The notes beneath the pieces are model-generated. The model ran no database searches. It was not told the origin of the DNA and saw only the letters and a list, made by a program, of their open reading frames with translations. The position numbers and the translations under genes are program-made. Below are positions 50,448-64,000 of a DNA stretch of 64,000 nt, in pieces. This DNA comes from Psychroflexus aestuariivivens. Its GTDB lineage: Bacteria > Bacteroidota > Bacteroidia > Flavobacteriales > Flavobacteriaceae. Positions within the stretch are counted from its first letter, which is position 1. Every line of letters begins with the position of its first letter. The stretch lies in contig NZ_RQVT01000050.1 of the NCBI RefSeq assembly GCF_004010055.1, positions 124,001 to 188,000 of the forward strand, in the 5' to 3' direction.

Positions 50448-53400
50448 CTACTGAACAATTAGTTTTTGTGTAAAGCTTTTTGAAGCGTTGCTGACTTTCA
50501 AAATATAAACTCCTGAATTCAGTTGGTCTTCAACTTGAATTTCTATAGGGTTTTGTGCCTTTGAATGCTTTTCAAAAACGCTTCGCCCTTGTAAGTCGTA
50601 AAGTTCAACAGTTATTTCAGAATCTGTAAAACTTTCATTCAGATTGATTCTGAAAAAATTTTCAGTTAAAGGGTTCGGCGTCACGCTGAATTTTTCGGAA
50701 TTAAATTCCTGCTGATCTAGTGTTATGTTGTCGAATTTCAATTTAAAACGATCGCTTTCTATACTTTCTGGAATGCTTTCATCTGTAACAAATGCAATCA
50801 CGTTGACTTGTGTATTGGTCAAATTGTAATTTCCACCAGTATAAGCATCGTAAAGTGAAACCTCAGCAGCTTCAAATTCTTCTAGATTTACACGAAATGC
50901 ATATTCATTTGTTTGAAAATTATCTAAATACAGTTGAATTTCATCATTGTTTTCAGAAATACTGGTAGATTCAACAGATAAAAAATCTGGAGATTTATCA
51001 ATTGCAAACCATTCTGCCTCGTTCCAAAATTTCGGAGCGTCAGAAAAATTGACAGTTTCACTAAAATCTGAACTGATATTTATCTTCACACCATCAACGA
51101 TTTTATCAAGTTCAGCGTTTTTCAAGTCGATTTTTATACTTTCTAAATTTGAAGTCTCATCGCTAAAAGTTCCGTTATTTGTCGATGTTTCAACTTTACT
51201 GTTTTCTGTAAAGGTTAAGCTAGGGTTTGAAGATATATTCTGAACAAAAAAAGCCTGATTAACTTGCAGATTCTTGTTGACAGTCGATCCCACAGGCGTA
51301 ACTGTGGCGTTACCATTTTGGAATTCTACGGTGACATAACCGCCACGATTGCCTAAAGTTGGATCGTAAATATAACTGAATTGTGAACTTAAGCCTTCGG
51401 CATTACTCAGTAAAACATCCATATCAACTTTAGCTTGATAAGGATTTCCAACTAAACTAAATTCGCCTTCATTTTGTGCTAAATTGGGTACAATTTGATT
51501 GCCATGTAGTAAATCTCCTCTAGTTCTTAAAACTGTAGAATTTCCTATAGCATCATTAGAAGTCAGGGAAATACTGCGATCACCACGCATCAAAATACCG
51601 TAAGCTTCATTAGCTTGTAAGGTTTCTGTGTCGGTATTTGGAACAGCGTTCCATTCTTGCGTATTTGCATTCCATTGAAATAATGACGGGTTTCCTGTTG
51701 CTGTAGCATCGAAACCATCTGCACCGCTTTGTGAACCTGTAATGTGCGTTCCGTAGCCTGGATTTGGATTTTCACTAACATCATTGGCGCCTTCTTGCCA
51801 ATTTTCATTGATGCTTCCTGTTGAATTTATGGAAGGTGAAATATACCGAAACGCTCGATTTGAATTGCTGAAAAATCTTTCGGACACAAAATTATTTCCT
51901 ATTATTTCTGAATTGGGATTCACTTGTCCAAGTACGGCTGTTCTTGCATTTGAACTTTTAAAAATCACTTCACCTTCGTTGATGAAATCGCCAGAAATAT
52001 TGAGCCTGCGTTCTATTAAAAGTGTAGCATTTTCTCTGACTACCACATCGTTAATATCAATATCGCTAGTCAAGGTTGCTGTTCCAGATTTTACAAAGAT
52101 ATTTTGTGCATCAGAACTCTGCATGTTTGGCGCATTTCCAAGCCCTTCAGCTGTCCAAGAATTATTATAAATATAATCGTTGTCGCCCTCGTTTGGCGTC
52201 ATGTCTGAAACGTTAGCGGTAGAAAAACTCCATTCATTTAGGTTGAAAGAGCTACTTGGTGCATCTACGGTTGGGATATTTCTAGTTGCTTTTGCATCTT
52301 CGTAACTCCAAGAAATTCCGGACTGATTGGTTTCTGAAATTACACCAAAAACATCCACCAATGTTGCTTGTGAATCGTTAGTAGACAAGAAATAAGCATC
52401 GTCACCATTTCCGGAAATTACACCGCTAACCAAGTCTGAAATTGTGCCGTAATTCACGGTAAAATTGAAAGTGGCATCGTCGCTTAAACTGACAATATAA
52501 TGTGATTTTGCAGGTAAGTTTCCTGTAAGTTGAACACTGCTATTGTTTGTTGCATTGTGAAGAAAATAAGTGTTTTCTGAAAAGTTTATCGCCTCAGTTC
52601 CGGTATTATAAAGTTCTACAAATCGACCATTGAAATCATCTCCAGGATCGGCGACTTCAGAAATTAGCAAGCTTGGCGTTTCAATAATATTGAAATTTTG
52701 GCTGTTTACAGAAGTATAACCATTTGCATTTGCCGTAAGTTGAATACCCGAATCTAACTCGGTATGAATAAGATTGTCAAAGGTAGCAATTCCGCTTTCT
52801 GGTGATGCGGTTACTGGAGAATTCTGTAAGACTCCTGTGGATGTTATGCTAATGGTTTCTGTAAGACTCAAATCAATATTGCCTTCTGTATCAGTGTTGG
52901 CAATTTGAACCGGAAACATTGCTTCGCCTAAAATTGTGCTTGAAGCTTCAGTAATAAATTCCAAACCATCACCTTGCACATCAATATTGAAAATATTCCC
53001 TTCAAAACCTGAAATATTTCTAGAAAATGAAGATCCAGATGAATTCACAAATTGATTTGAATTTCCATCTTCAATTGCCATTTGGATAACTTCTTGATCC
53101 GTTATGTCACTTGACTTTATAAAAATACTTAACTCAAATGTTTTAGTTGAGCCATCGTTTACTGTCATTAAGCCACCACTATTATTTGTAATTTCCAAAA
53201 TCAATTCTTGGTCTGTAATTGTTAGATTTTGGTTGGATTGGGCGAGAAAGCTTCCAGACTCAATCCGAACACCTTCAATAATTTCAGACCAATTGGCAGT
53301 GTTGGCATTTCCGGGAACAAATCTTAAAGTATTGATTTCGGTGGAAACTCCATCCAAACTTCCAGAATCAGTAACATCAAAGCGCAAAACTTTGACGGAA

Positions 53401-55391
53401 TTTGACACATTGATTGCCTCATCTGCAACGATTGTTCCTGAAGGAATTGGCGTGCTTGGTGCTACAATTTGAGAATCTGTATCGTTGGAGGTTCCACTCA
53501 ATTCAATATTATCCAAACCAGAATAACCTGTAGCACCGTTACTGCTAATTATGTATCTGAGCCCAACTTGATTTACTGAATTTGGCACATTTACAGAAAT
53601 TGTTCCTGAACCATTTTCACCAGTTTGACCACCATCAAACACAAAAACTTCACCTTGATTTTCACCATCGTAAATCAATTCGTATTTTAAAAAATCCGAT
53701 CCAGTGTTGTAACCAACCGCCTGCCAATCCAATGATAAGTTCACATTTTCATATCCTGAAATATTGATATTTTCAAATTCCAGTTCAGCAAAATTTGATG
53801 TGCCATTAGGTGAATCTAAATCGTTTTCTCCTAAAATATTATTATCAAATTCAGAAAAGTTTAGAGGTGAAGCATTACTTATATTTATTATGCCAAAATA
53901 AGCAGAACCCCAAGAATCGTCAAAAAAGTTGATATTTTTAGAATAATTCCAATTTGGCGTTGCATTATCAAAATTTTGAACCGCGATGAACATTGTGCCG
54001 ATATTAAAGCTTTGACTAGTAATATTTGAAAACCCTACAGACGATGCCGTTAATGTTAAATTATTCCCCAGGCTGGTGTGGGTGATGTTATTGAAAACAG
54101 CTCTGCCATCAACAGCATTTTCAGTAGCTGGAGAATTGGCTAAACTTCCTGAAGAAGTTATGGTAACTTCTTCTGAAGCAGATGTATCTAAATTGCCATT
54201 AGTATCTACAAAGCTGACTTCTACAGCAGGTGTCATTGCTGAATTTAGTGGCGTATCTACTGGTTGTTGAGAAAATTGAATATTAGAGGCTTGAACATCA
54301 ATTGTAAACTGATTTCCAGTAACATCTCCACCAGAAAAAGCATTAGAAAAATCTGAACCAGAAGAAAAATCAGCTTCAAAACCACTGTTATTTCCTTCAA
54401 CTTCAAACTGAATGGTTTCACCATCTTGAATGTTTGTTTCACTTAGAAAAACTGCAAGTGTAAATTCTGTTGAAGTTCCGTCTGGTATGGAAATTGGGTT
54501 TACAAATTCTAAAATCAATTCATTCTCTGAAATAGAGACTGTAGGTGAAAAAATATTTTCATTTTCATCTATTAAATTGATGCCTTGAAGTTGTGTTGCC
54601 CAATTTGATGTATTATTCACACCGGAAACAAAGCGCATTCTTGTAATTTCAGTTGGCAAGTTATCCCCACTACTCAAATCGTCTACACTAAAGCTAAAAA
54701 CGTCTTGCGCATTGGCTGATGTTGTAGTTGCATCTGCAACAATTGAAGCGCTAGCAACTTGGTTTTGCGGAGCTGAAACTTCGGTTGTGGTGTTATTTTC
54801 AATCGGTGAACCAGCGAGTTTAATATTATCATATCGATTGTTTCCTGTACCAGATGTTGCGCCATCTATAATGATTCTGATGACTAAATTCTCCACATCA
54901 TTGACTTCAGTTATTGAAGAAAAATCAAAAGAGTGAACGCTTCCTGCTGTAGAATTTATTGGAGAAAAACTACCTGAAGCTAAGTTTGAAAAATTCGAAC
55001 CACCATCTGTTGAATACTGAATTTGGTTATTGTTAAATCCAGTTCCTGTTCGTCTTACCCAAAAAGATAAAATTAAATCTTGATAACCTGAGGAAGGAAA
55101 ATTCAAATCAAAATAATTTCCATTATTCTCAGAGTTTCTTGGGCTAAAAGCGTTACCGATATTACTTCCTGAACATGCGTTGGAAGCGTTTCCGCCAAAG
55201 TCCTCAGCGTTAGTAAGGTTGTGCGTAATGCTTCCATTGCCGCTAACTCTATTATCTAATTCTAAAGGTGAAGTGTTGAAGTTTCCTCCGGGTGCTGAAC
55301 CATTGAAATCCCAGCAGTGAATGATCTCTTGTGCGTTTGCGTTTAGACTCAATACAAACACAAAAAGCATCAATAAATTGAAGCGTTTCAT
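50448..55391 (-). CDS. Large T9SS-sorted surface protein with lamin-tail domain and internal duplication
   Basis: The 1647-residue protein starts with a signal peptide (MKRFNLLMLFVFVLSLNANA) and ends with a T9SS sorting domain (SVTPNPLTENFFRINLN, later SGVYILKVSN). In between are a beta-rich N-terminal domain with a DNIKL-type motif, a first copy of a 259-residue unit at about 205-463, a second beta-sandwich domain (DNATPNWNYSKNINFF), a second copy of the unit at about 643-901, a lamin-tail domain at about 908-1065 (LLISEVADPGDDFNGRFVEL) and a further beta region. I see no catalytic motif. It is probably a surface adhesin or scaffold; position next to the PUL suggests a link, not proof. Confidence 0.85.
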   Translation of the reverse strand: MKRFNLLMLFVFVLSLNANAQEIIHCWDFNGSAPGGNFNTSPLELDNRVSGNGSITHNLTNAEDFGGNASNACSGSNIGNAFSPRNSENNGNYFDLNFPSSGYQDLILSFWVRRTGTGFNNNQIQYSTDGGSNFSNLASGSFSPINSTAGSVHSFDFSSITEVNDVENLVIRIIIDGATSGTGNNRYDNIKLAGSPIENNTTTEVSAPQNQVASASIVADATTTSANAQDVFSFSVDDLSSGDNLPTEITRMRFVSGVNNTSNWATQLQGINLIDENENIFSPTVSISENELILEFVNPISIPDGTSTEFTLAVFLSETNIQDGETIQFEVEGNNSGFEADFSSGSDFSNAFSGGDVTGNQFTIDVQASNIQFSQQPVDTPLNSAMTPAVEVSFVDTNGNLDTSASEEVTITSSGSLANSPATENAVDGRAVFNNITHTSLGNNLTLTASSVGFSNITSQSFNIGTMFIAVQNFDNATPNWNYSKNINFFDDSWGSAYFGIINISNASPLNFSEFDNNILGENDLDSPNGTSNFAELEFENINISGYENVNLSLDWQAVGYNTGSDFLKYELIYDGENQGEVFVFDGGQTGENGSGTISVNVPNSVNQVGLRYIISSNGATGYSGLDNIELSGTSNDTDSQIVAPSTPIPSGTIVADEAINVSNSVKVLRFDVTDSGSLDGVSTEINTLRFVPGNANTANWSEIIEGVRIESGSFLAQSNQNLTITDQELILEITNNSGGLMTVNDGSTKTFELSIFIKSSDITDQEVIQMAIEDGNSNQFVNSSGSSFSRNISGFEGNIFNIDVQGDGLEFITEASSTILGEAMFPVQIANTDTEGNIDLSLTETISITSTGVLQNSPVTASPESGIATFDNLIHTELDSGIQLTANANGYTSVNSQNFNIIETPSLLISEVADPGDDFNGRFVELYNTGTEAINFSENTYFLHNATNNSSVQLTGNLPAKSHYIVSLSDDATFNFTVNYGTISDLVSGVISGNGDDAYFLSTNDSQATLVDVFGVISETNQSGISWSYEDAKATRNIPTVDAPSSSFNLNEWSFSTANVSDMTPNEGDNDYIYNNSWTAEGLGNAPNMQSSDAQNIFVKSGTATLTSDIDINDVVVRENATLLIERRLNISGDFINEGEVIFKSSNARTAVLGQVNPNSEIIGNNFVSERFFSNSNRAFRYISPSINSTGSINENWQEGANDVSENPNPGYGTHITGSQSGADGFDATATGNPSLFQWNANTQEWNAVPNTDTETLQANEAYGILMRGDRSISLTSNDAIGNSTVLRTRGDLLHGNQIVPNLAQNEGEFSLVGNPYQAKVDMDVLLSNAEGLSSQFSYIYDPTLGNRGGYVTVEFQNGNATVTPVGSTVNKNLQVNQAFFVQNISSNPSLTFTENSKVETSTNNGTFSDETSNLESIKIDLKNAELDKIVDGVKINISSDFSETVNFSDAPKFWNEAEWFAIDKSPDFLSVESTSISENNDEIQLYLDNFQTNEYAFRVNLEEFEAAEVSLYDAYTGGNYNLTNTQVNVIAFVTDESIPESIESDRFKLKFDNITLDQQEFNSEKFSVTPNPLTENFFRINLNESFTDSEITVELYDLQGRSVFEKHSKAQNPIEIQVEDQLNSGVYILKVSNASKSFTQKLIVQ
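52688..53465 (-). repeat. Second copy of duplicated unit in the T9SS protein
   Basis: It encodes about 259 residues and aligns by eye with 54001-54779: both contain a VADxA segment, ST-EI-xLRFVxG, an NW...I/LxGxxI patch, a TFELSIFIKSSDITD/TLAVFLSETNIQD segment, and both finish with NSPxT, a T-L-x-H-T stretch and SQ(S/N)FNI. Confidence 0.75.
54001..54779 (-). repeat. First copy of duplicated unit in the T9SS protein
   Basis: It encodes about 259 residues starting VSAPQNQVAS and ending SQSFNIG. The pairing with 52688-53465 covers the whole unit at nearly equal length, so the pair is a domain-level duplication, not a short tandem repeat. Confidence 0.75.
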
Positions 55392-55498: not shown

Positions 55499-56491
55499 CT
55501 ATGATCTTATATTGATATTGAATGGCATCTCAAAACGAATATCTGTTTTGGTTTTAGATTCAAGCTTATTGATTAACAATTCTGCTGACTTCTCACCGAT
55601 TTTCATTGCATTTTGATCGATGTAACCCATAGGTGGATAACTGAGTTGAGCAGTTTTTTCATCTGAAAATCCAATAATGGTAATCTTTGAACTTACTTTT
55701 GGCATTTCTTTATTTACGATGCTTTGAAACATTAGGCCTGATGTATTGTCCGCTGAGATGACTGCGTCAATTTTGTTTGCTTTCAGAAAGTTGATTATTA
55801 TTTCGTGTGGGTTTTCCTTATTGGTCAAATCGACTTCCAATTGGTTATTTACTTCTATATTATTAGCTTTTAAGGCATTTCTATAGCCTTCTTTTCGCAT
55901 TTGCCCAATTCCTAAATCTTCAATATTACTAACAAAAGCAATTTTCCGATTTCCACTATCAATCAATACTTTTGTAGCATCGAAAATAGATTTTTCATCA
56001 TTGATAATTACTTTATCGCAGTTTACTTTTTCTGTTGTTCTATCAAATAATACTAATTTTTTTTTGTTCTTTTGAATGCTTTCAATATGAGAAAATTCTT
56101 GATTCAAAAGAGTTTCTAGAGCTAACGAAATAATGAACCCATCTACTCTGCCTTGTGTAAGTAAGTCTACACTTTTAGCTTCTTTGCCCATTTGGTCATG
56201 ACTAACACAAACTATGGTATCATAATTATGCGTTGTAGCATATTCTTCTATTCCATGCAAAACTTTTGCAAAAAATTGATTGAGAACATCAGGAATTATT
56301 ACACCAATGGTTTGGGTTTTATTGGCTTTTAGAGCTAAAGCAGTACGGTTGGGTTTATAATTATAGAGTTCTGCTGCTTCTTTGATACGTTTTTTTGTAT
56401 CTGGTCCAATATCTTTGGCGTCATGCAGGGCTTTAGAAACTGTTGATACAGAAACATTCAGTTGTTTTGCAAGTTCTTTTAGTGTAATCAT
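55499..56491 (-). CDS. LacI-family transcriptional regulator
   Basis: From ATG 56491 it has 330 residues. The N-terminal helix-turn-helix is LKELAKQLNVSVSTVSKALH, followed by the hinge helix region (NYKPNRTALALKANKT), which inserts in the minor groove at a central CpG. The C-terminal half is a periplasmic-sugar-binding-like domain (TIGVIIPDVLNQFF and VDGFIISLA). It lies between two T9SS genes and the glycoside hydrolases, so it probably controls the locus in response to a glucan-derived sugar. A TANNTTTG element and a palindrome upstream suggest autoregulation. Confidence 0.9.
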   Translation of the reverse strand: MITLKELAKQLNVSVSTVSKALHDAKDIGPDTKKRIKEAAELYNYKPNRTALALKANKTQTIGVIIPDVLNQFFAKVLHGIEEYATTHNYDTIVCVSHDQMGKEAKSVDLLTQGRVDGFIISLALETLLNQEFSHIESIQKNKKKLVLFDRTTEKVNCDKVIINDEKSIFDATKVLIDSGNRKIAFVSNIEDLGIGQMRKEGYRNALKANNIEVNNQLEVDLTNKENPHEIIINFLKANKIDAVISADNTSGLMFQSIVNKEMPKVSSKITIIGFSDEKTAQLSYPPMGYIDQNAMKIGEKSAELLINKLESKTKTDIRFEMPFNINIRS

Positions 56492-56515
56492 AGTGGAAAA
56501 GCTTAACTTAAAGTC

Positions 56516-56539
56516 TATCAAACATACGTTAATTTGATA
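56516..56539. promoter_or_regulatory. Candidate LacI-type operator over the lacI promoter
   Basis: A 24-base near-palindrome has perfect 7-base arms TATCAAA (56516-56522) and TTTGATA (56533-56539) and a central CG at 56527-56528; 9 of 12 positions match across the axis. A central CpG is the hallmark of LacI-family operators. It overlaps TATGTTTG (minus strand, 56526-56519), a TANNTTTG -7 element, so binding would block the regulator's own promoter. Confidence 0.55.
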
Positions 56540-56635: not shown

Positions 56636-58243
56636 TTATTTTTTAATTAATCTAATTGTTTGCAAACTCTTAGTATCACTTTCAATCTTAGCAAAATAAA
56701 CTCCCGACGACAATCCTTCAGAAGAAATTGTAGCTTGATTTGCGTCAACCTTCTGTTCAGATACTAGCTTACCCATTACATTATAAACTTGAATTTTAGA
56801 AATATTTACATTTGTTTCTATATTCCAAACATCAGTTGTAGGGTTTGGGTATGTAGTAAGCTCAGCTTTTGTAAAAGTTGCATTACTTAAAGTACCACCT
56901 GATAAAAAGAAGTTGTCATAGTATGTATTGTTTTTCATTGGACCCGTAGGAATAGTAACTACCAATTCATCTAAGTTATCAAAGGCTGATAAGTCTACAG
57001 GAATTTCAGCTGAAACCCATTGTCCTGTAACTATGGCAGGAGTTGATCCTCCTGTTAGAGTAATACTTAAAAAAGTGTCATCTGCCGGGTCTCCATTCCC
57101 TTGTGTTTCATTAAATTTTAGGTCAATTACAGCACCTGTTAAATCTGTACCATCATTTACCCAAAAGTCAAAATGTAAAGTCGTAAAACTTGTAACGTCT
57201 AAAGTATTTTGTAATAGAATACCTTGACATGCATTGTTATTCCATTGTAACAAGTTATCTCCGTTAATATCTAATTCAGTAAACGAGTTGGGGCCACAAA
57301 ATTCAGCATCAAAATTTGTAAAAGGTTCTTGGGAATAAGCGTCGCTATAAAAGTTAACTACATTTTCATCATCTCTTTCTGCTGGTGTTGGAGCAGCTGA
57401 TGTAGGACCAACAAATTCATAAGAAATAGTGTACGTTTCAGTAGTCACGCCATCTTCTGCAGTAACTACGATTGTTGCGTTACCTGGCACAGCAGCAGCA
57501 TCTGTAATAACTGTTGTTGCATTTGTATTAGTAGGCACAGCAAGGGTAATTTCAGGTACAGAAGTAGAAGTTGAAGGTACGCCAAAATCATACTCAGTAG
57601 TTCCTGGCGCAAAACCTGGTAAAGCTGCATTATCAATTTCAATTGAAGATAAGGTAGCATCAGTCGTAGGATCTACAGCTTCTTTCCAGAAGTATAGATT
57701 ATCGATGTAAAAATCGCCTCTTGGACCATCTGCACCCCAACCTTGCTTTTCTGATTTAAATTGGAAAACATTATCCCAAGTCATCCCTGTAAAATTAGCT
57801 TTGGGGATGTCTATACTCGTCCATTGGCCACCTGTTACTGGAACATTAACTAAGGCCTCAGTAACTCCACCACCATTAATTGGGGTAATTTGAAAGACAT
57901 CATCTATTGGTGACCATACATCGACGTGTAAAAACTCCATCGCAGCAGCATTTTGGTTAGAGCCTAACACCATTCCTTGGTATGATAAATCTTCGTAAAA
58001 AAGAACTTCATTTCCACTTACATCAACAAACACAGGTGCGACATAAGCACCTGGTTGACCCCAGAAAGGAGCATAATCAGTACCTGCTACATCTGTATAA
58101 GGATTACCATCGTTTCCTCCACCGTAAATTGAAATGACATCACTTGCATCTCTAGCAGGAGGTGTGCCTGGGTTTGTTGTTGGTTGTGCATAAGTTAATG
58201 CGACAAGAAACATCATTAAAAAAGTTGTAATTTTTTTCATCAT
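56636..58243 (-). CDS. T9SS-sorted putative glycan-binding protein with duplicated module
   Basis: The 535-residue protein has a signal peptide (1-19), module A at 24-188, a cadherin-like beta-sandwich at about 192-278 (LSSIEIDN and FAPGTTEYDF), module B at 283-448 and a T9SS sorting domain at 462-535 (TTYPNPTTDVWNIE). Modules A and B share an aPTP-AxRD start, a V(I/N)xxY/FxDAY-like patch, SYQGMVLG/ACQGILLQ, an HxDxWSP/HFDFWVND segment, a GQW-S-(D/E)IP strand and a final YxDN(L/F)(Y/F)F. This is the look of a non-catalytic carbohydrate-binding module. With GH17 and GH30 genes beside it, beta-glucan capture at the surface is the likely role; this is inference. Confidence 0.75.
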   Translation of the reverse strand: MMKKITTFLMMFLVALTYAQPTTNPGTPPARDASDVISIYGGGNDGNPYTDVAGTDYAPFWGQPGAYVAPVFVDVSGNEVLFYEDLSYQGMVLGSNQNAAAMEFLHVDVWSPIDDVFQITPINGGGVTEALVNVPVTGGQWTSIDIPKANFTGMTWDNVFQFKSEKQGWGADGPRGDFYIDNLYFWKEAVDPTTDATLSSIEIDNAALPGFAPGTTEYDFGVPSTSTSVPEITLAVPTNTNATTVITDAAAVPGNATIVVTAEDGVTTETYTISYEFVGPTSAAPTPAERDDENVVNFYSDAYSQEPFTNFDAEFCGPNSFTELDINGDNLLQWNNNACQGILLQNTLDVTSFTTLHFDFWVNDGTDLTGAVIDLKFNETQGNGDPADDTFLSITLTGGSTPAIVTGQWVSAEIPVDLSAFDNLDELVVTIPTGPMKNNTYYDNFFLSGGTLSNATFTKAELTTYPNPTTDVWNIETNVNISKIQVYNVMGKLVSEQKVDANQATISSEGLSSGVYFAKIESDTKSLQTIRLIKK

Positions 58244-59376: not shown

Positions 59377-61869
59377 TTAGTTATATTTAAGTTTTTCATG
59401 TTTATCCCATATTCCCCAGCGTTGGCCTACATCACCTTCGTGACGTGCTTTCCAAGATTCATCGAATGATGAGAAATAAAATAATTTTATGTTTTCTTGT
59501 TGAATCCAATTGCTTACATTGATAAAGTATTTCATAGCATTGATATTGCTTGGAACTGCTTTCTCATTGACTTCTCCCTGACTAGGCCATCCAGTCTCAG
59601 CAATTATGATTTGTTTACCTTTTGCTTTAGATTCAATTAAAGCATACATTTCGCGTAAATAGGCTGTTGAAATTTCTATATCTGCACCCTCCCAAAACGG
59701 ATAGCAATTGATTAAAATTACATCACAAGCATCTATTAGTAATGGATGTTCGTTATACAAATAGTAGGCGTCGACATAGCCTATTTGAATATTTGGTAAA
59801 GCCTTTTTAACTTCCTGAATATAATCTAGTAAATCTTTTTCTGAAAGCTCCTCTCTAAGTAGAACCTCATTCCCTACCACGGCAATATCCACATGACCTG
59901 CTTTACCTAGTTCTATTAATTTATTAATTTCTTTACGGTTCTGGGTTTTATCCTCGCTTATCCATGCGCCAACCATAGTTTTCAACCCATTTTGTTTCGC
60001 TATTTTAGGAATGTGCTCATTTCCTCCTGTACACGAAAAAGATCGTAGCCATTTTGTGTAAGGTTTTATTATTTCGATACGTCTTATGATTTGTTCTTTG
60101 GTGAGAATGTCATCTATATCCTGTTCGTCTGTATAAGGGCTAAAACATAGTCCATGCATTCCTTTATTAAGATTTGAAGAGAAAAGTTCCTGAATGTTAT
60201 CCATTGTTTTTGATGAATAATCTAAATCGTACTTATAATCTGGAACTATTTCAGAAGAAATTAAAGAATGTAAACTTTTAGTACCAAAAGAAGAACTCGT
60301 TCCTTTAGGCAAAGCTTTTCTTTTCTTTAGCTCATTACCAATTTCTCTCACTCTTTTTTCATCTAACCTATAACCCCACATAACTAAAAAAGCAATGGCA
60401 GCTGTTGATGCTGGCACAATAATATCAGCAATCCTAAGGTTATTCATGGTTTCTATGGTTTGAATGTCAGAATCGGGATTGAATCCCACTATACTTAGAA
60501 TAACACCGCCAAGGACAAGCGCAATAGATTGACCAAGTTTGACCATTAGCCAGTATATCGCACCAAAGGTTCCTTCTTTTCGAGGTGAGCCATTTTCTAA
60601 TTCATCTAAATCACAAACATCTGCAGTCATCGACATCATTAGAGTAAATAAGCCACCCATTCCGAATGCAAATAAAGGTATCGGTAAGAAAATTAGCCAT
60701 GGAACTCCATTTTCTACATTAATAGTAAACCACGATGCACCAATACTGTCTAAGTATGGGTTAAGAAAGTTAAAAACTGCTCCAAGTCCTTCTGTTAAAC
60801 CTTCACCTAAAGCGGTTTCGTTAAATTTTGCATTTAATTCTACATCAAAACCCCACCATTTGAGAATATAGCCTACTATAGATAAAAATGTAGAAAGTAA
60901 AAACGCATTTCGTTTGCCAATTTTAGTTGCAATTTTTGATATGATAGGAATTACAATAAAAGCGGTTATAATAGCATTGATGGTATTAAACCAAGCTGGC
61001 CAAGTTCCTGCCAAATCATAACTACCATTATACATATAAAACACGATGATGAATACTCCAAAAGCAGCTACCAACTGAAAGCCATTGAAGACTAAAAATG
61101 TAGCACCACAGAGCTTCATAAATGGCTTATTTTTGGAAACTTGTACAATTCCTTCAATAAGTTTTTTTATGTTTTTAGCCAATGTTTTAAAACTAATCCT
61201 CTCCCGATCTTCCATATTGCCAGCATCCATTCCTTTGCAAAATAGAGCAGGCAATAGCCCAAAAACAATAGTCATGGCTCCTACGATAAAGGCCATAGTC
61301 CTGACACCTTCAGGTTTTGTACTAAAGGTTTCTGAGTCTGGAATTATAACATAAAGCCAAGGCACTATCATCCAAGCGATTTGCCCCATGGTATTTGAAA
61401 AGGCCATCAATCTAGTGCGTTCATGATAATCCGGAGTCATTTCATAACCCAAACCGACAAGCGGGGTAGCAAACATTGTATTACCTATCAGAAATAAAAG
61501 CTGAAGAATCATAACATGCCAAATGATATAAGACTGAGAAGCATTATCATCGATTTGCCACATCAAGAAGAAAAGTATACCACTTAAAATAGAACCAAAG
61601 AATATATAAGGTCTCCTTCTTCCCCACCTGGATTTAGTATTATCTGTAATAAAACCCATGATTGGGTCAGTAAATGCATCAAAAATTCTTGGCAACCCTC
61701 CTAACAACCCAGCCCATAAAGGATCCACTCCCCAAGCAGTTAATAAGAAAAACTGAATAAAGACTCCTAAAGTACCAGGTAATACATTTAGAATAAAATG
61801 TCCAGCTCCAAAAGCTGCTTTTTGACCTACAGGTACTTTAAAATCTTCGGGAGTTTTAATTTCAGACAT
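59377..61869 (-). CDS. MFS (GPH-type) sugar symporter fused to a GH17 domain
   Basis: An 830-residue two-part protein. Residues about 15-505 form a twelve-helix glycoside-pentoside-hexuronide symporter, with the loop motif DNTKSRWGRRRPYIF and ADVCDLDELENG region typical of GPH carriers. A linker of about 40 residues (EKRVREIGNELKKRK, serine-rich) leads to a GH17 domain at about 545-830, with E668 in VVGNEVL and E758 in IIAETGWPS and the closing GIWDKHEK. GPH carriers keep both ends in the cytoplasm, so the hydrolase would sit at the cytoplasmic mouth of the importer. The reading frame is continuous with no stop. It is 11 bases after the GH30 gene and 2 before the free GH17 gene. Confidence 0.85.
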   Translation of the reverse strand: MSEIKTPEDFKVPVGQKAAFGAGHFILNVLPGTLGVFIQFFLLTAWGVDPLWAGLLGGLPRIFDAFTDPIMGFITDNTKSRWGRRRPYIFFGSILSGILFFLMWQIDDNASQSYIIWHVMILQLLFLIGNTMFATPLVGLGYEMTPDYHERTRLMAFSNTMGQIAWMIVPWLYVIIPDSETFSTKPEGVRTMAFIVGAMTIVFGLLPALFCKGMDAGNMEDRERISFKTLAKNIKKLIEGIVQVSKNKPFMKLCGATFLVFNGFQLVAAFGVFIIVFYMYNGSYDLAGTWPAWFNTINAIITAFIVIPIISKIATKIGKRNAFLLSTFLSIVGYILKWWGFDVELNAKFNETALGEGLTEGLGAVFNFLNPYLDSIGASWFTINVENGVPWLIFLPIPLFAFGMGGLFTLMMSMTADVCDLDELENGSPRKEGTFGAIYWLMVKLGQSIALVLGGVILSIVGFNPDSDIQTIETMNNLRIADIIVPASTAAIAFLVMWGYRLDEKRVREIGNELKKRKALPKGTSSSFGTKSLHSLISSEIVPDYKYDLDYSSKTMDNIQELFSSNLNKGMHGLCFSPYTDEQDIDDILTKEQIIRRIEIIKPYTKWLRSFSCTGGNEHIPKIAKQNGLKTMVGAWISEDKTQNRKEINKLIELGKAGHVDIAVVGNEVLLREELSEKDLLDYIQEVKKALPNIQIGYVDAYYLYNEHPLLIDACDVILINCYPFWEGADIEISTAYLREMYALIESKAKGKQIIIAETGWPSQGEVNEKAVPSNINAMKYFINVSNWIQQENIKLFYFSSFDESWKARHEGDVGQRWGIWDKHEKLKYN

Positions 61870-63402: not shown

Positions 63403-64000
63403 CTAATGATTGAGCATTATTTCATTTTTAACTGGAGGAATATGCACATCCAGAAGTAGGTCTTCTAATTTTCCATCGTAGGTTTTTGTAATTTCATTTT
63501 TGTCACGCTTTAGATTTTCAAAGGTTTTTTTATCTACAGCATCCCATAATGCATATTTTGCTTTTCCATCTACGGTGAATAATCCAAAGTAATTTTCTGA
63601 TCCATTAGGATATTCAGCGTCTTTCCAAGGCTCATCAAAAGCTTCGAAATAGAAACATTTTGTTTTATTTTTTGTAGCCCATTCTCTCATTTTGTGATAG
63701 TATAAGGCTTGTTTGTATTCGTCTGTGGCTTTAGATCCTGCTGGACCATAATGCCTGTCGGAAAAACTGGCCCATCCGGTTTCACCTATATGAATTGGTT
63801 TTTTAATCCCTAAAGATTTCACATAGCTCGCCACACTATCATATTGTGATACTGCATAAGTTAATGATCTATTCATAACTTTATCGAGTTTTTCTGTATT
63901 GCTGAGCTTTTTTTCTTTTGGAAGAACTCCCCAAAATACAGGGTTATAATGCGTATCATGCATTGGATAAGTATGAATAGAAAGATAATCAACTGTTTCA
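63403..64000 (-). CDS. GH17 glucanase (5' end beyond window)
   Basis: The C-terminal 199 codons of a GH17 protein; the frame stays open to the right edge and reads YLSIHTYPMHDTHYNPVFW there, so the true start lies outside. The nucleophile is in HIGETGWASFSD, and the family block EAFDEPWKDA follows. It differs from the two paralogs further on: the motif is GETGWAS and the end continues with a charged tail (HIPPVKNEIMLNH). A signal peptide cannot be checked. It is 22 bases from the GH30 start, so first of the visible operon genes. It is plausibly the extracellular endo-glucanase of the locus. Confidence 0.85.
   Translation of the reverse strand, partial: ETVDYLSIHTYPMHDTHYNPVFWGVLPKEKKLSNTEKLDKVMNRSLTYAVSQYDSVASYVKSLGIKKPIHIGETGWASFSDRHYGPAGSKATDEYKQALYYHKMREWATKNKTKCFYFEAFDEPWKDAEYPNGSENYFGLFTVDGKAKYALWDAVDKKTFENLKRDKNEITKTYDGKLEDLLLDVHIPPVKNEIMLNH

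Follow-up and report, generated by a model that had tools for sequence, protein, structure and literature searches.

Laminarin, an algal storage sugar, is among the major stores of carbon in the sea. The closest described counterpart of the protein considered here is FbGH17B (FORMB_24740, AOR29491.1) of Formosa sp. Hel1_33_131, in which an MFS carrier and a glycoside hydrolase family 17 (GH17) domain are fused (Unfried et al. 2018, PMC6246565). The FbGH17B hydrolase was assayed as an exo-beta-1,3-glucosidase that releases glucose from debranched laminarin, a coupling of cleavage to uptake was proposed, and the fusion was termed common among marine Flavobacteriia (PMC6246565). In a North Sea bloom described in 2023, the majority of the variant-1 laminarin polysaccharide utilization loci (PULs) that were expressed have at least one GH17-MFS fusion, and SAR92, Luminiphilus and SAR86 were named among the bearers of such loci (PMC10108472). 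FbGH17B has been discussed alongside the unfused MlGH17B of Muricauda lutaonensis (PMC11005184, PMC13188888), a transglycosylase whose aglycone residues Tyr136, Trp191 and Glu192 are required for transglycosylation; FbGH17B has Met in place of Tyr136, and a hidden transfer activity of the enzyme was left open (PMC11005184). In 2026 the two were treated as occupying corresponding positions, and their differing activities were remarked upon (PMC13188888). The subject of this analysis is a fusion gene in a 64,000-nucleotide stretch of Psychroflexus aestuariivivens (contig NZ_RQVT01000050.1, positions 124,001 to 188,000 of the forward strand; the window). The initial annotation took the fusion for an undescribed one, a claim overturned by the reports of 2018, with an assayed hydrolase (PMC6246565), and 2023 (PMC10108472): the window protein is the Psychroflexus version of a published kind. 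Sequence, structure prediction and analogy together make it probable that this protein is an importer like FbGH17B that serves a laminarin locus, with a tethered cytoplasmic hydrolase whose lineage is distinct from that of the standalone GH17 encoded next to it. What is added here is the separate lineage of fused GH17 domains, the exchange of carriers, and a hint, at the level of single residues, that labour is divided between the two GH17 types. Neither the separate lineage, nor the tyrosine replacement described below, nor a paralogy of FbGH17B and MlGH17B was met in the literature searched, which took in papers in part and without their supplements.

The window gene is a single intact open reading frame (ORF) of 830 codons, free of internal stops, that joins an MFS_2 carrier to a GH17 domain (Table 1), as the initial annotation had recognized. 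The carrier matches nearly the whole of Pfam PF13347 (MFS_2; residues 20-504, profile positions 2-427 of 427, 204.5 bits against a cut-off of 27), and its closest solved fold is MelB, over residues 11 to 522. Carrier residues D64 and D68 align with the MelB cation-site pair D55/D59, so that both the 12-helix MelB fold and the cation-site Asp pair of a MelB-like symporter are present. Identity to MelB (7l16, 9old), which has no hydrolase, is 17-18%, and MelB D19 and D124, which we take to be its sugar-site aspartates, are aligned with N28 and A134. The earlier description of the carrier as GPH-type stands in part: the MFS_2 match and the MelB fold agree with it, but the score against NCBIfam TIGR00792 (GPH, the 'gph' model), 184.3 bits, lies under the cut-off of 231.35, and the carrier is therefore filed as MFS_2 with a MelB fold and not placed in the GPH subfamily. 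The C-terminal half scores 52.5 bits against the GH17 profile (cut-off 28.2). Its catalytic glutamates, E668 and E758, lie exactly where they were first placed and are kept in all 35 fused and all 92 standalone GH17 rows of the alignment. The nearest solved GH17 is RmBgt17A (4wtp/4wtr) of Rhizomucor miehei, a fungal transglycosylase that, unlike the window fusion, has no carrier. Like FbGH17B, the protein has an N-terminal 12-helix MFS half and a C-terminal GH17 half, encoded in that order by one ORF in a laminarin PUL with GH17A and GH30, and coupled import and cleavage have been proposed for both; it differs in belonging to Psychroflexus rather than Formosa and, as compared by published description, in having Leu at a site where FbGH17B has Met (PMC11005184).

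Table 1. Features of the fusion gene and of the adjoining laminarin genes, in window coordinates
Feature	Position	Strand	Basis or remark
MFS_2-GH17 fusion gene, 830 aa	59377..61869	-	ORF and Pfam scan
Carrier half, residues 14-498, 12 predicted membrane helices	60376..61830	-	structure prediction, MelB alignment
Carrier tail helix, residues 504-519, predicted cytoplasmic	60313..60360	-	structure prediction
Linker, residues 519-545	60235..60315	-	pLDDT <50 at 519-532
GH17 domain, residues 546-830	59380..60234	-	Pfam, alignment, fold match
Catalytic Glu E668	59866-59868	-	
Catalytic Glu E758	59596-59598	-	
L671, tyrosine site of fused GH17 domain	59857-59859	-	
Standalone GH17B-type gene, 305 aa	58457..59374	-	starts two bases after fusion stop
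GH30, 499 aa	61881..63380	-	lipoprotein-like start by eye
GH17A, 3' part	63403..64000	-	continues beyond window, L076:1403-2686; lipoprotein-like start by eye

The initial annotation had proposed a search for the MFS_2-GH17 domain order, and the one-ORF fusion was found in many genera. Patterns made from the window protein retrieved 72 related loci from genome_contigs, a sample that for this reason leans to close relatives. A locus was scored as fused only where the ORF scan showed a single ORF, because listings of frame lengths can span stops; apparent larger fusions (frames of 1025-1045 and 1121 aa) were rejected, since numerous stops divide them into separate genes. Carrier and GH17 share one ORF in 24/72 loci and are neighbouring genes in 45/72, separated by a median gap of 23 bases; the remaining three have no carrier in the stretch. 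A further standalone GH17 lies downstream in every one of the 24 fused loci, and 12 of the 13 loci titled Psychroflexus are fused, the exception being P. maritimus (L052). At least 194 of the 299 genomes of the family sample match the whole protein somewhere, often by the carrier alone, and 37 of the 395 genomes of the phylum sample have a close GH17 match, which shares an ORF with a carrier in 15 of them, the window's genome included. A search for the fusion on plasmids matched 187 records, but in no record did any one place cover 80% of the query.

Some loci stand apart in layout or origin. L108, L109, L110, L111, L123 and L124 are laminarin loci with two carrier-plus-GH17 units per row, in which some 700 bases separate the first carrier from its GH17; a similar gap in L107, a locus with one unit, contains a 211-aa ORF. 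L069, titled as a Bifidobacterium breve MAG, is a typical Bacteroidota laminarin locus and looks mislabelled or like a foreign contig. A Vibrio fortis plasmid encodes an unfused carrier (L127:3018-4538), 45% identical to the window carrier half, that adjoins a 324-codon hypothetical gene.

The two halves of the fusion have different histories. In a GH17 tree of 127 rows (35 fused, 92 standalone; 125 different), all fused domains lie on one side of a branch with 98% support. In the carrier tree of 87 rows, on the other hand, the fused state needs seven changes, at least five of them forced by well supported branches. The 16 fused rows of a 40-row carrier tree fall in four places: a distant clade of eight fused and three unfused carriers, a position beside Chryseobacterium echinoideorum (L119), the pair L013/L028, and the main Psychroflexus group, which adjoins ordinary unfused carriers; a single clade of fused carriers costs 924.7 log units in this tree and is rejected by the approximately unbiased (AU) test (p-AU 5.4e-43). 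The window carrier adjoins mostly unfused carriers, whereas most of the non-Psychroflexus fusions examined have a carrier of distant lineage. Distant fusions, compared as full-length rows, have 42-46% identity to the window protein over the carrier and 46-61% over the GH17 domain. The pattern recurs at short range within Psychroflexus: L006 is 95% identical to the window carrier but 66% to its GH17 domain, L013 68% and 81%, respectively, and identity falls or climbs around the linker. The AU test rejects a GH17 tree that keeps the window together with L004-L007 (p-AU 4e-5) and a carrier tree that keeps it together with L009, L013 and L014 (p-AU 2e-5). In light of the tree conflict, these rejections and the identity shift near the linker, the hydrolase module and its carriers seem to have changed partners, an exchange to which the trees assign no direction. 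Two other origins of the Psychroflexus fusion, independently from its own neighbour gene (p-AU 0.0004) or from local unfused stock (p-AU 5e-5), were rejected.

These trees rest in part on 20 regions chosen by eye for long frames from the family listing, of which 16 entered the 127- and 87-row trees; L109, L110, L111 and L123, laid out like L108, were left out of both, as were the smaller loci L078-L106. Later trees used chosen subsets of 40, of 46, of 16 and 17, and of 45 rows. Groups for the AU test were defined once the first trees or identities had been seen, and the searches were quick except for the 16- and 17-row Psychroflexus trees, which were careful. Over the last 250 residues L120 equals L013, L130 equals L048 and L131 equals L012, so that the phylum sample, with 13 fused rows, contributes 11 new ones, and 34 of the 35 fused alignment rows are distinct.

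The balance of this evidence tips toward the fused GH17 being a dedicated paralogous hydrolase lineage, a portable cytoplasmic module passed between distant carriers by exchange at the linker, with a standalone gene of the transglycosylase type kept beside it. If true, this reading would account for hydrolysis by FbGH17B and transglycosylation by MlGH17B, two enzymes that have been treated as counterparts. Several observations tell against it. L119_F has a long branch, and its placement with the standalone group is possible (p-AU 0.254). The fused L147 (G338), singled out by profile scores and by its nearest rows in the 45-row set, has a standalone-like GH17 domain: L147_F scores higher against the standalone type, its five nearest rows are standalone (71% identity to L138_N), and it opens with a standalone-like SFREE stretch, in the linker. 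The fused label needs three changes in the 45-row tree, two of them forced; holding all fused rows together is not rejected there (p-AU 0.312). No second GH17 match was found in the L147 genome at E 1e-40. On its sequence, L147 is a likely, if unproven, separate fusion of a carrier with a GH17 of the standalone type.

As a working scheme, GH30 and GH17A, with their lipoprotein-like starts, would remove branches from laminarin and cleave it beyond the inner membrane, judging from their families and from the Formosa enzymes, and the MFS_2 carrier would import the linear oligosaccharides by a cation gradient, as its fold and conserved Asp pair suggest. The GH17 domain, which would hang from the predicted cytoplasmic C-terminus by a disordered linker of about 25 residues, may hydrolyse beta-1,3-oligosaccharides inside the cell, by analogy with the Formosa relative, from which alone the hydrolysis is known. 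Imported oligosaccharides would then meet the tethered hydrolase at once, with free GH17B and GH149 phosphorylase sharing the pool. Both the initial annotation and Unfried et al. went further and proposed a true functional coupling, whereby a hydrolase at the carrier exit lowers internal oligosaccharide and raises net uptake. Coupling of this kind is possible but doubtful: the single polypeptide with its predicted cytoplasmic C-terminus, the retention of the fusion across many genera, and its occurrence in the majority of the variant-1 laminarin loci expressed in one bloom (PMC10108472) speak for it, but the fused domain also sits on the distant carriers compared above as full-length rows, the halves conflict even within Psychroflexus, where a matched surface would resist exchange, the linker is predicted to be disordered, and separate carrier and GH17 genes are found at 45 of the related loci. 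The flexible linker and the traffic of hydrolases between unlike carriers favour simple tethering at a fixed ratio over a carrier-specific channel, and what the fusion chiefly gains is most likely a constant 1:1 ratio and a position at the exit of the carrier, rather than a tunnel specific to one carrier.

Unfused carriers end just past the stretch that matches the tail helix of the fusion (residues 504-519). The alignment suggests the idea that the linker is an old start, MSYREG..SL, that came to be read through. A check of linker-motif spacing, a simple test from which no decision is drawn, matched the pattern in 13/33 fused rows, at scattered distances.

The fused domain resembles MlGH17B in being encoded straight after an MFS carrier and in its catalytic pair, and differs from it in being fused, MlGH17B being an unfused transglycosylase. 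The residues that correspond to the MlGH17B triad are L671, W726 and E727, so that the full transglycosylase triad is absent from the window domain. Trp and Glu are kept in all fused and standalone rows (35/35 and 92/92), whereas Tyr is replaced in 32 of the 35 fused rows (by L in 21, H in 4, F in 4 and M in 3); in the phylum sample, repeats included, Tyr is replaced in 11/13 fused and 3/26 standalone rows. A fusion in the same gene order in G123 (L116) has Met at the tyrosine site. Set against a clean functional split, and reducing it to a tendency, are the three fused rows that keep Tyr (L118, L119, L125) and the six of 92 standalone rows that have lost it. Given the separate fused lineage and the Tyr replacement, FbGH17B and MlGH17B, both placed by their published descriptions, are probably paralogues. 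Unfused Allomuricauda relatives, as stand-ins for MlGH17B, cluster with the standalone type, and fused loci as a rule hold both GH17 types. The standalone neighbour of the fusion, 53% identical to the fused domain, has Tyr at this site and is, from its sequence, probably a transglycosylase like MlGH17B. That the fused domain is itself an MlGH17B-like transglycosylase, remodelling imported chains in the cytoplasm, is unlikely: its nearest solved relative is a transglycosylase and the Trp and Glu required for transfer are invariant, but the Tyr is replaced in the window and in nearly all fused rows, and FbGH17B released glucose (PMC6246565).

Structure prediction places the C-terminus of the fusion on the cytoplasmic side, in agreement with the initial annotation, on the grounds of 12 helices, assigned by the author from the DSSP string of the predicted structure, and of the MelB fold. 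The carrier has an additional helical insert at residues 343-375, interpreted here as periplasmic, that counts against this topology; as a genuine membrane helix, it would put the C-terminus on the other side. The GH17 domain would then trim oligosaccharides in the periplasm ahead of import, and Unfried et al. (PMC6246565) do consider two enzymes likely periplasmic, in a passage that does not name which. Such an arrangement is nonetheless highly improbable in view of the extent of the MelB match, the positive charges of 26 versus 1 under the 12-helix reading of the carrier, the absence of residues 360-400 from both of the distant carriers shown in alignment (L069, L051), and the standalone GH17 paralogue, in which inspection by eye revealed no signal peptide. 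An assembly or annotation error that merged two genes, for which the closely spaced separate genes of so many related loci might be invoked, can be set aside, the same fusion recurring in many assemblies, 12 of the 13 Psychroflexus loci among them, with a domain that differs in lineage from the separate gene persisting downstream.

The fusion belongs to a minus-strand row that consists of GH17A (past the window edge), GH30, the fusion and the standalone GH17. Beyond the window, upstream, lie genes for a GH149 1,3-beta-glucan phosphorylase, a PKD-domain protein, GH16, an Ig-like protein, a 1056-residue protein, GH3, a Y_Y_Y-domain protein and a second sugar transporter. With GH149, GH16, GH3, GH17A and GH30 co-encoded, the row is a laminarin locus, which supports the beta-glucan oligosaccharide setting first suggested for the protein. 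By family, GH30 is likely a beta-1,6-glucosidase; the Muricauda GH30 is predicted to be cytoplasmic (PMC13188888), and its location may therefore vary among loci. No SusC or SusD was found among the nine upstream and ten window proteins to which the scan was limited. The 1056-aa upstream protein (L076:9392-12562) has a secretion-like start and no Pfam match at E 0.001, and may be a glycan enzyme for which no model exists. A 535-aa protein (56636-58243), encoded on the same strand some 210 bases past the standalone GH17, has a type IX secretion tail and a cadherin-like domain; a 1647-aa protein (50448-55391) likewise has a type IX secretion tail, with a lamin tail-like match under the curated cut-off, and a LacI-type regulator (55499-56521) is encoded near the laminarin genes.

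Loci with this kind of fusion are expressed by bloom bacteria (PMC10108472). A separate fused lineage turns the conflicting activities of the two GH17 types into a testable division of labour, in which hydrolysis would take place at the carrier and transglycosylation in the cytosol, and the natural carrier swaps offer ready-made pairs for asking whether the tethering of an enzyme to a transporter aids uptake.
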